From Gemmatimonadota bacterium (GTDB lineage Bacteria > JBHIER01 > G020348925), in contig CP070758.1 in NCBI GenBank assembly GCA_020348925.1, positions 3,252,402 to 3,316,401 on the forward strand: a stretch of DNA of 64,000 bases, given 5' to 3'. The position numbers were made by a program, and so were the translations under genes. This document shows, one piece after another, positions 61,175 to 64,000 of this stretch (its first letter is position 1; the number at the start of each line of letters is the position of its first letter). The notes beneath the pieces are model-generated. The model was given only the letters and a program-made list of their open reading frames with translations, had not been told where the DNA came from and did no database searches.

Positions 61175-62097
61175 ATACCTGTGGCCCGCTGGCATTCATT
61201 GAAAAAAAGTGTCAAGGGCGTGTGCTTCACAACGAACCGCTTTCGTCTCACACCTCCTTCGGGATAGGCGGTCCGGCGGATGCCTTTGTGTGGGCCGACG
61301 GCGTGGAGGATGTGGAAATTGTACAGGACGCTGTTTTATCGAACGAGATCCCCTTTCTTGTGATAGGGAACGGAACAAATCTCCTGTTCCATGATGAGGG
61401 ATTTCGAGGCGTCGTTCTGCGCCTCGGTCGGCACTTTAAAGGGATCGTAAGTGAAGGGACACGCGTCACAGCAGGAGCTGGGGCAAATCTCTCGAAAACG
61501 TTGAGCTTTTGTGCCGAACATGATTTGGGAGGTTTCGAATTCGCAGTCGGCATTCCGGGTACTGTGGGTGGTGCGGTGTCGTCCGCAGCGTGGACGCGAT
61601 CCGGGGGGATTCGGGATCGACTCTCGCGCGTCACCGCCATGGGGCCCAAGGGAGATGTCGTGACAAAAGATGCACCATCCCTGGGAAACGAGCATGGAGA
61701 CCTCGTTCCGGATGGCTGTATTATTACTGAAGTCTCGTTTCAACTTGAGCCTGCGCCTGAAAATGCTATTCGTCTGGAAATGGAACGTCTTATGGCCCGT
61801 CGCAAACAAACGCAACCGTTGAACAAACGGAGTGCCGGCTGCGTCTTCAGAAATCCGGAACATCAATCTGCCGGTCGGATCATCGATGAATGCGGATGTA
61901 AGGGGATGAGGGTGGGTGGGGCGGTCGTTTCCGAGAAGCACGCCAATTTCATCATCAACAGCGGTGGGGCGCGATCGGAGGATGTGCTCGAGTTGATCGA
62001 GCGCGTCCGGGAGCGGGTCCACAGCGCGACCGGTGTTCTCCTCGGATTGGAAATCGATGTCGTCGATCCTTGGGGCGGTATGAGGAGAGATGCGTAG
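61171..62097 (+). CDS. murB: UDP-N-acetylenolpyruvoylglucosamine reductase MurB
   Basis: 308 residues from ATG 61171. FAD-binding segments are HTSFGIGGPADAFV, GNGTNLLFHDEGFRGVV and VGIPGTVGGAVSS. The substrate domain has SAGCVFRNP (221-229), with Cys224 as the likely proton donor, and VSEKHANFIINSGGA. The usual YRxS segment is replaced by EHGD (174-177), and the MNAGAYG stretch after GGAV is also altered. It reduces the enolpyruvyl group to lactate to give UDP-MurNAc. These changes are unusual but the enzyme otherwise looks intact. Confidence 0.93.
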   Translation: MNTCGPLAFIEKKCQGRVLHNEPLSSHTSFGIGGPADAFVWADGVEDVEIVQDAVLSNEIPFLVIGNGTNLLFHDEGFRGVVLRLGRHFKGIVSEGTRVTAGAGANLSKTLSFCAEHDLGGFEFAVGIPGTVGGAVSSAAWTRSGGIRDRLSRVTAMGPKGDVVTKDAPSLGNEHGDLVPDGCIITEVSFQLEPAPENAIRLEMERLMARRKQTQPLNKRSAGCVFRNPEHQSAGRIIDECGCKGMRVGGAVVSEKHANFIINSGGARSEDVLELIERVRERVHSATGVLLGLEIDVVDPWGGMRRDA

Positions 62098-62932
62098 TAC
62101 GAAAAAAATGTATTTCAATGAGATTGCGGTGAGAGAACCGAGACACGTCCTGCTCGCCCTTATCAAAGCCTTCAACCGGACGACGGTCGTAGTTACCGTG
62201 TTGGGGTTCCTGGCCCTTATGGGCCATCACGTCTACACGTGGGCTCTTCAGACGCCGTTCTTTGAGATCCAAGAGATTCGTGTGCGGGGACATCATATCA
62301 TTTCCGAGGAGAGGGCCTTGAGCTTGATTGGGATCGAGGAGGACTGTAATATCTTCCGGTGCGATGTCGATGCGGTGGAGCGGAGGGTTGCCCAGGATCC
62401 TTTTGTGCGAAAGGCGGACGTGAAACGTCGTTTGCCCTCAAAGCTTCTCCTTTCGATCGAGGAGAGAAAGCCCTTGGCCTTTTTGGCCGATATGATCGGT
62501 ATGGTCGACGACGAGGGCGTACTGCTTCCACCCATTGCTCCGGAACAGTGGTCCGATCTCCCGCTCTTGACAGGGATTGGGGTAGAAAAGATCCGCTTTG
62601 GGGAGCCGCTTCAGTCTGAGCCGGTAGCGTGGGCCGTCTCTTTTCTCAAGGCCGCGGCCGCATTGAACTCGAACGGAGCTCTTGAAATTACCGAGATCGA
62701 TCTGAGCGATATGGCACATCCGCTTTTGTACGCCGGTGACAGGAGTGTTCCCGTCAGGATTGGGGTGACGGGCTCTCTGTCACAATTGACCAGTCTTCCT
62801 GTCGTCCTGGCGGATTTAGAGCGGAAGGGGATAGAGGCCGAATATATCGATGTGCGCTTTTCGAATCAGATTCTTGTCAGGCCGAGAAGATTTACGAACA
62901 TGGGGCTGGAATCAAAGGCAGTGAAAGGTTGA
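62090..62932 (+). CDS. ftsQ: Cell division protein FtsQ
   Basis: 280 residues. A short cytoplasmic tail, one membrane helix at about 31-51, a POTRA domain (about 58-126, FFEIQEIRVRGHHIISEE onward) and the FtsQ beta domain follow. TGAGGAGAG sits upstream of the ATG, which overlaps murB by 8 bp. FtsQ recruits FtsL/FtsB and regulates FtsWI. The last codons form one arm of a 15-bp inverted repeat with downstream DNA. Confidence 0.92.
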   Translation: MRSTKKMYFNEIAVREPRHVLLALIKAFNRTTVVVTVLGFLALMGHHVYTWALQTPFFEIQEIRVRGHHIISEERALSLIGIEEDCNIFRCDVDAVERRVAQDPFVRKADVKRRLPSKLLLSIEERKPLAFLADMIGMVDDEGVLLPPIAPEQWSDLPLLTGIGVEKIRFGEPLQSEPVAWAVSFLKAAAALNSNGALEITEIDLSDMAHPLLYAGDRSVPVRIGVTGSLSQLTSLPVVLADLERKGIEAEYIDVRFSNQILVRPRRFTNMGLESKAVKG

Positions 62933-62990
62933 CGCCCAATAATCACACTAAAACTCAAGAAAGGAGAAAATTTCTTTTGATTCCAGCCCC
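62902..62990 (+). repeat. 15-bp perfect inverted repeat spanning the ftsQ stop
   Basis: GGGGCTGGAATCAAA (62902-62916, inside ftsQ) pairs perfectly with TTTGATTCCAGCCCC (62976-62990), with a 59-nt loop that includes the stop codon. A G-T and a G-C pair extend it to 17. No T run follows, so an mRNA processing or stability structure, or the scar of an inverted duplication, is more likely than a terminator. Confidence 0.8.
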
Positions 62991-63043
62991 TGATAAAACG
63001 TCTATGGAGAACAGCGAAATGGTTTAAACGTGAACATAAAAAA

Positions 63044-63161
63044 TCTGAGCAGGTGACTGGCCAGGGTTCATTGACAAAACGATAAGCAAGCCTACCATTC
63101 CTGTCACATCACATTCTCTCTCCGTATTTTGTCCCTCTCAAATGGCCATAGCCTGCTCAGA
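63044..63161. repeat. Foldback element, unit 1, in the ftsQ-ftsA gap
   Basis: Bounded by TCTGAGCAGG (63044-63053) and its exact complement CCTGCTCAGA (63152-63161). Near the 3' arm it has TTGTCCCTCTC, then TGGCCATAGCC, where GGC/GCC close a four-base loop. The 5' arm, the pyrimidine block and the GGC/GCC mini-hairpin recur in unit 2, 16 bp downstream. Could be a structured RNA or a MITE-like repeat. Confidence 0.75.
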
Positions 63162-63177
63162 GTCCTGACATGCCGTT

Positions 63178-63280
63178 GTTGAGCAGGTGAGTAGTCGGTG
63201 ATTGTGACTATTCTACCCGTAACGCTTTGATGTTGAAACAATCGCCATTGTCCCTCTCTCGTGGCGAAAGCCTGCTCAAC
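63178..63280. repeat. Foldback element, unit 2, in the ftsQ-ftsA gap
   Basis: Bounded by GTTGAGCAGG (63178-63187) and CCTGCTCAAC (63271-63280); one more flanking pair extends the stem to 11 bp. The end matches unit 1 (TTGTCCCTCTC, then TGGC-GAAA-GCC, a GNRA-type mini-hairpin). The middle differs from unit 1 and is 15 bp shorter. The outer stem changes TCTGAG to GTTGAG on one arm and compensates on the other, which argues that pairing is conserved. Confidence 0.75.
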
Positions 63281-63323: not shown

Positions 63324-64000
63324 ATGGGGAATGAAAACTCGGTCATTGTGGGTCTCGATATAGGCACGACGAAGATCGGCGTCATTGTGGCTGAGATCGG
63401 TGCCGATGGTGAGGTGCGCATTGTGGGTGTCGGCACGAGCCCTTCGGAAGGGCTCAGGCGCGGTGTCGTGGTCAATGTGGAGAAAACGGTCCAGTCGATA
63501 AAGACTGCCGTGGCCAGGGCTGAGCGCAGTTCCGGGAAAAAGATTTCGTCCGTCTACGCCGGGATTGCCGGGGACCACATTCGGTCCATTAACAGCCGGG
63601 GTGTTATTGCGGTCTCCAGGGGTGATCATGAGATCACCCCCGGTGATGTGAGACGGGTCATCGACGCTGCCAAGGCCGTGGCCATTCCCATGGACCGAGA
63701 GATTATTCATGTTCTTCCGCAGGGTTACGTCGTGGACGACCAATCCGGTATCAAAGATCCCGTTGGCATGGCCGGAGTGCGATTGGAAGCGGAGGTCCAT
63801 ATCGTGACAGGGGCGGTCACTTCGGCTCAGAACATATACAACAGTATTAGGAAGGCGGGATTGGAAGTGAAGGATCTCGTGCTCCAACCCCTGGCTTCGA
63901 GTTACGCTGTCCTGTCTCAAGATGAAATGGAGCTTGGTGTCGGACTGCTGGATATCGGGGGCGGGACGACGGATATCGCTCTCTTCTTTGAGGGAAGTAT
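63324..64000 (+). CDS. ftsA: Cell division protein FtsA (5' part, cut by window end)
   Basis: The first 225 codons are visible with no stop before the window edge. The start is ATG 63324, with GGAGGAGG about 13 nt upstream. IVGLDIGTTKIGVIVAEIG (about 8-26) is the phosphate-1 motif of the actin fold. SSVYAGIAGDHI and the 1C subdomain (VIDAAKAVAIP to VLPQGYVVDD) follow, then LLDIGGGTTDIALF, the phosphate-2 motif. FtsA tethers FtsZ to the membrane. It is separated from ftsQ by 391 bp, unlike the tight packing elsewhere in the cluster. Confidence 0.95.
   Translation, partial: MGNENSVIVGLDIGTTKIGVIVAEIGADGEVRIVGVGTSPSEGLRRGVVVNVEKTVQSIKTAVARAERSSGKKISSVYAGIAGDHIRSINSRGVIAVSRGDHEITPGDVRRVIDAAKAVAIPMDREIIHVLPQGYVVDDQSGIKDPVGMAGVRLEAEVHIVTGAVTSAQNIYNSIRKAGLEVKDLVLQPLASSYAVLSQDEMELGVGLLDIGGGTTDIALFFEGS

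Follow-up and report, generated by a model that had tools for sequence, protein, structure and literature searches.

Results

The window, the whole 64,000-nt stretch of DNA that was analysed, carries two foldback units (u1 and u2) on the forward strand between the cell-division genes ftsQ and ftsA. Both units of the original prediction were confirmed, as were the blocks common to them, namely the outer stem TGAGCAGG/CCTGCTCA, TTGTCCCTCTC, and TGGC-N4-GCC, with middles that are unlike. The units are separated by a spacer of 18 bases, and the folds of u1 and u2 are more stable than those of all 200 dinucleotide shuffles (z of −3.2 and −4.1, respectively). The parts of the gap are listed below, where bit scores refer to R1, a covariance model trained on seven copies of the element.

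62090–62932, +: ftsQ, gene 5′ of the gap
63045–63160, +: u1, full element, 100.9 bits (an R1 training sequence)
63045–63054, +: u1 outer stem P1, 5′ arm CTGAGCAGGT, partner 63151–63160
63058–63063, +: u1 inner stem P2, 5′ arm TGGCCA, partner 63143–63148
63065–63089, +: u1 hairpin region P3, with the conserved tip ATTG-ACAAAA-CGAT
63090–63139, +: u1 linker, pyrimidine-rich and G-poor, with TTGTCCCTCTC at its 3′ end (63129–63139)
63143–63148, +: u1 P2, 3′ arm TGGCCA, partner 63058–63063
63151–63160, +: u1 P1, 3′ arm GCCTGCTCAG, partner 63045–63054
63179–63279, +: u2, full element, middle unlike that of u1, 36.7 bits (outside the R1 training set)
63179–63188, +: u2 P1, 5′ arm TTGAGCAGGT, partner 63270–63279
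63190–63193, +: u2 AGTA strand of a bulged-G-like module, facing GAA at 63266–63268
63248–63258, +: u2 TTGTCCCTCTC block, conserved (mean pairwise identity of 0.77)
63266–63268, +: u2 GAA, facing AGTA at 63190–63193 in the bulged-G-like module (the two go together in seven copies)
63270–63279, +: u2 P1, 3′ arm GCCTGCTCAA, partner 63179–63188
start near 63324, +: ftsA, gene 3′ of the gap

Between ftsQ and u1, at 62958–63028, there is also a possible 16-codon frame with a TTG start near 62977, reading LIPAPDKTSMENSEMV-stop and preceded by AAGGAG, which may encode a leader peptide or have arisen by chance.

A search of the source genome (G000, a single contig of 5.04 Mb) for further copies, as had been proposed with the prediction, placed u1 and u2 among eleven dispersed copies at ten sites. 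A DNA search of G000 gave relatives of u1 at 82% and 73% identity, and this search together with a two-ended pattern yielded the first copies beyond the tandem pair. The remaining copies came from covariance models built here: R1 recovered an eighth copy (915534) at 59 bits, and a second model, R2, trained on ten copies, recovered the eleventh (893381) at 41 bits (E = 5e-6). A score carries independent weight only where the model was not trained on the sequence, which applies to R1 for 915534 and u2 and to R2 for 893381; the 47.1 bits of u2 with R2 belong to a training sequence. Some copies are close kin, L117 and L121 being 94% identical. One further candidate, L126, was rejected for its position inside a coding gene. 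All eleven copies are intergenic, the apparent overlaps with protein genes being over-extended ORF starts. They are given here by G000 position and strand, with the next downstream gene.

675491, +: next gene on the opposite strand
774461, −: cNMP-binding protein, same strand
893381, +: no clear next gene
915534, +: next gene on the opposite strand
1402932, −: NtrC-type regulator, same strand
1798139, −: next gene on the opposite strand
2881350, −: CheY-like protein, same strand
2973679, +: CarboxypepD_reg-repeat protein, 30 nt downstream, same strand
3315446 (u1) and 3315580 (u2), +: ftsA, same strand
3347486, +: no clear next gene

The element is about 100–116 nt long and consists of P1, an AGUA/GAA or Watson-Crick module, P3 with its ACAAAA tip, the linker, and UUCCCUC. 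In the alignment of all eleven copies (A6), which was fitted to the model and thus favours the structure, and in which some copies are close kin, so that the figures are not probabilities, pairing is present in 89.4% of cells (78.9 ± 1.7% once partners are shuffled), and nine pairs are altered on both sides, against 4.5 in the shuffles. Sliding the partners by one to three columns brings pairing down to 26–44%. For P1, 93.9% of cells are paired over the eleven copies and four pairs are altered on both sides; its versions include TGAGCAGG, CCGCAGG, GCGGG, and GAGCGGG, each with a matching 3′ arm. The suggestion that outer-stem bases change together under selection for pairing, first made from u1 and u2, thus gains support across the genomic copies. 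Departures from Watson-Crick pairing are G·U in 21 cells (nine columns) and A·C in two cells (one column), and the sense strand is therefore taken as the strand that folds.

Adjoining P1, AGUA faces GAA in seven copies, which we take to be the sequence signature of a bulged-G (sarcin-ricin or loop-E) module. Three copies, including u1, have Watson-Crick pairs there (ACU(G/A) facing (C/U)AU), so that P2 of u1 is the Watson-Crick counterpart of the module; L142 has GCGG/CCGC at this position, and P2-type arms are also found in L118 (TAGCCG/CGGCTA) and L122 (TGGCA/TGCCA). The TGGC-N4-GCC block had been read as a conserved mini-hairpin, and here the other copies speak otherwise. In four of them the halves match only in part (TGC..GCC in L122, CGC..GCC in L123 and L124, CGT..GCC in L125), and GCC pairs with the 5′ GGY of the outer stem. 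The other half of GGC-N4-GCC pairs with a 5′ partner of its own (TGGCCA/TGGCCA, TAGCCG/CGGCTA, TGGCA/TGCCA, or GCGG/CCGC), and the pairing of GGC with 5′ GCC adjoins the AGUA/GAA bulged-G-like module. This alternative pairing, together with the AGUA/GAA or Watson-Crick module, overturns the mini-hairpin. Predicted folds also contain a hairpin GAGUAG/CUAUUC in u2 (8 bp, GAGUAGUC/GACUAUUC), L117, and L121, which would compete with the AGUA/GAA module.

Conservation is uneven along the element. P3 and its loop have a mean pairwise identity of 0.75, against 0.41 for the linker that joins P3, with its ACAAAA tip, to UUCCCUC, and the parts outside the linker range from 0.70 to 0.77. The linker is scrambled in sequence and is 73% pyrimidine and 10% G, a composition matched by 1.7% of 45-mers in the intergenic background. 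The exceptions are u2 and L125, with 60% pyrimidine and without the typical hairpin. Against the ftsA ribosome-binding site, the linkers of u1 and u2 showed no better pairing than their shuffled versions. A tip-linker pairing (ACAAAA/UUUUGU) is perfect in u1 but is shorter elsewhere and of low complexity, and is not claimed.

Around the copies we searched for signals of transcription. A T-run of at least five lies within 17 bases 3′ of six of the eleven copies, against 5% of background sites, and it falls within the portion common to L117 and L121; neither u1 nor u2 has one. Since A-runs of at least five precede five of the eleven copies, the T-run signal is not strand-specific, and its excess may stem from terminators that work in both directions or from AT-rich flanks. 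Sigma54-like sites lie 93 bases upstream of copy 3347486 (11/12 positions) and 9 bases upstream of copy 915534 (10/12), where the usual spacing would put the start near the first base of the element. Such sites occur at about 3.6 per 100 kb of strand searched, and given this rate the two are suggestive only.

Copy 3347486 is also followed shortly 3′ by a strong hairpin with a T-run and, about 190 bases downstream, by another sigma54-like site (TGGCACGGAACTTGCG, 11/12, L117 5284–5299, +). Perfect 12/12 sites were seen in L120 (3152–3167, −) and L121 (2849–2864, +), which fits a genome encoding NtrC-type regulators near element copies. Hfq (PF17209) had no match in G000, which is 96% complete, whereas the same search was positive in five of 14 control genomes.

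Beyond the source genome, the family models had no convincing match in 386 genomes across the domain, none of them from the phylum of G000, in 20 genomes of the FCB group and its neighbours that have the nearest ftsA genes, or at 34 of the ftsA loci retrieved from FCB-type relatives. As the Infernal filters scored only part of the candidates in these scans, weak relatives could be missed. The closest ftsA matches are in Zixibacteria and their neighbours, so that the host probably belongs to an isolated FCB-like lineage. Rfam has no family at its gathering threshold over the window gap or any copy, as the statement that no known class fits had anticipated; its two sub-threshold matches in the gap lie on the opposite strand and are taken as chance. 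Other candidates were set aside: a weak model match in another genome (L138) is low-complexity pyrimidine-rich sequence, a second one (L141, E = 0.07) includes the string GACAAAACGATAAG, yet inspection by eye revealed no closing structure, and an exact 16-mer of the hairpin tip gave three chance matches in viral contigs with no surrounding element.

Discussion

The eleven copies constitute a lineage-restricted family of elements, structured on the sense strand and not described before. Our leading explanation, to which we give somewhat less than an even chance, is that most of them are lineage-specific multicopy small RNAs acting in trans in the manner of LhrC, with u1 and u2 as two of the eleven members. 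Several copies would terminate at their own P1/T-run terminator, and the single-stranded C/U-rich stretch would pair with mRNAs at their purine-rich ribosome-binding sites and so block translation. As neither u1 nor u2 has a T-run, these two would arise as part of the transcript of the division genes or by its processing, and they may also influence ftsA expression locally. Such a family should consist of homologous copies at several loci, with a CU-rich, G-poor stretch, and this is what we find, more weakly in u2 and L125. On the other hand, a terminator whose closing stem spans a 100-nt loop would be unusual, and the genome gave no Hfq match, although LhrC acts without Hfq.

The family also has the outline of bacterial MITEs, which are about 100–150 bp, dispersed, and intergenic, with ends that pair into a long stem (PMC2229807). 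Terminal inverted repeats, a length of about 100–116 bp (within the 100–200 bp typical of the class), and dispersal between genes are all present here, one pair of copies (L117 and L121) is 94% identical, and two Y1-type transposases are encoded in the genome. It is conceivable, if on the unlikely side, that the elements were dispersed in the past as MITE-like foldbacks and are now immobile, some copies being kept as folded transcripts that affect the processing or stability of neighbouring mRNAs. For ERIC and Correia/NEMIS, folded transcripts have been proposed to act in this way. Scattered copies had been named in advance as support for a MITE, and the dispersal is indeed there; what is missing is any target-site duplication, since flanking direct repeats are no better than in shuffled flanks at all eleven copies, and any longer, autonomous element with the same ends in the genome. 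Other matches to the 5′ end of the element are isolated, and none of five inspected has the element structure. Moreover, u1 and u2 do not have 5′ TA 3′ termini, and neither Y1 transposase locus bears a copy. Terminal repeats that a transposase recognises would be expected to stay constant, whereas the closing stem here varies among copies with compensating changes, and it is the stems and loops that are conserved, the linker sequence being scrambled.

A cis-acting role would make the element a leader or attenuator that senses a ligand or protein, in which P1 and the T-run halt transcription and the u1-u2 tandem tunes ftsA/ftsZ. We regard this as rather unlikely for the family. The tandem arrangement itself suits it, as do the five sites where the next gene (for ftsA, CarboxypepD_reg, NtrC-type, CheY-like, or cNMP-binding proteins) lies on the same strand, and RNAs that bind proteins often contain bulged-G modules (PMC7247131). 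Yet the next gene is on the opposite strand at three sites and is not clear at two, the downstream genes are unrelated in function, and a consistent same-strand position upstream of related genes, as riboswitches have, is thus not seen. In contrast to an aptamer core, the largest region of the element, its linker, is poorly conserved, and u1 and u2, the copies next to ftsA, have no T-run. Given the mixed orientation to the downstream gene, the family as a whole does not serve as an ftsA leader, and a dedicated tandem aptamer for ftsA/ftsZ is not supported as its role, with nine other copies beside unrelated genes and no convincing match at the ftsA loci scanned in FCB relatives; a striking tandem foldback beside ftsA need not regulate ftsA. 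The occurrence in one genome only, among the genomes scanned, might also be expected of foldbacks that arose by chance or of decayed repeats that no longer have a function, but pairing kept with compensating changes, strand-specific wobble, and the strong contrast between structured parts and linker make this very improbable.

The reading as LhrC-like small RNAs draws on likeness to a described system. LhrC1–5 of Listeria monocytogenes are a small homologous RNA family of five copies, G-poor, with CU-rich UCCC-type motifs in loops and single strands and an end terminator (PMC4132741). The likeness seen is in composition and in the presence of several homologous copies, and descriptions of LhrC include neither the closing stem nor the AGUA/GAA module of the present family. 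The Qrr RNAs of Vibrio are likewise multi-copy, driven by sigma54 with an NtrC-type regulator, and Hfq-dependent. Two copies here have upstream sigma54-like sites and one lies 0.7 kb after an NtrC-type gene; unlike Qrr, however, such sites are found at only two of the eleven copies, and Hfq was not found. A bolder variant, which we consider quite improbable, is a hitherto undescribed class of multi-copy, Hfq-independent regulatory RNAs from an isolated bacterial phylum, with an interchangeable basal module (AGUA/GAA bulged-G or Watson-Crick), some copies being controlled by sigma54/NtrC-type regulation and the tandem, as part of the division operon, coupling ftsA/ftsZ output to the network. 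If the RNA reading is true, an isolated lineage without detectable Hfq owns a large homologous family of structured RNAs, two members of which are placed within the cell-division cluster, and it would offer a tractable, sequence-defined case for the origin and diversification of multicopy small RNAs.

Among repeat families, ERIC, Correia-NEMIS, and RUP resemble the element in size (about 100–150 bp), dispersed intergenic position, and ends forming a long stem (PMC2229807), and differ in that the present family has no target duplication, TA termini, or matching transposon, and has a compensated closing stem. REP/REPIN sequences with their RAYT are foldback repeats too, and Y1-type transposases are at hand in this genome. 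The element is several times longer, however, no copies lie beside transposase genes and no linked RAYT gene with flanking copies was found, and the GTAG motif is not invariant here (ACTGG/ACTAG in three copies). Upstream of one Y1 transposase gene (L151, G000 1247004) we also observed a repeated unit like AAGTAGGGGTCACATCTTTAATCTTTGATCTT, and the similar AAAGATTAAAGATG recurs 3′ of the same transposase and in L147; these repeats are possibly a separate family.
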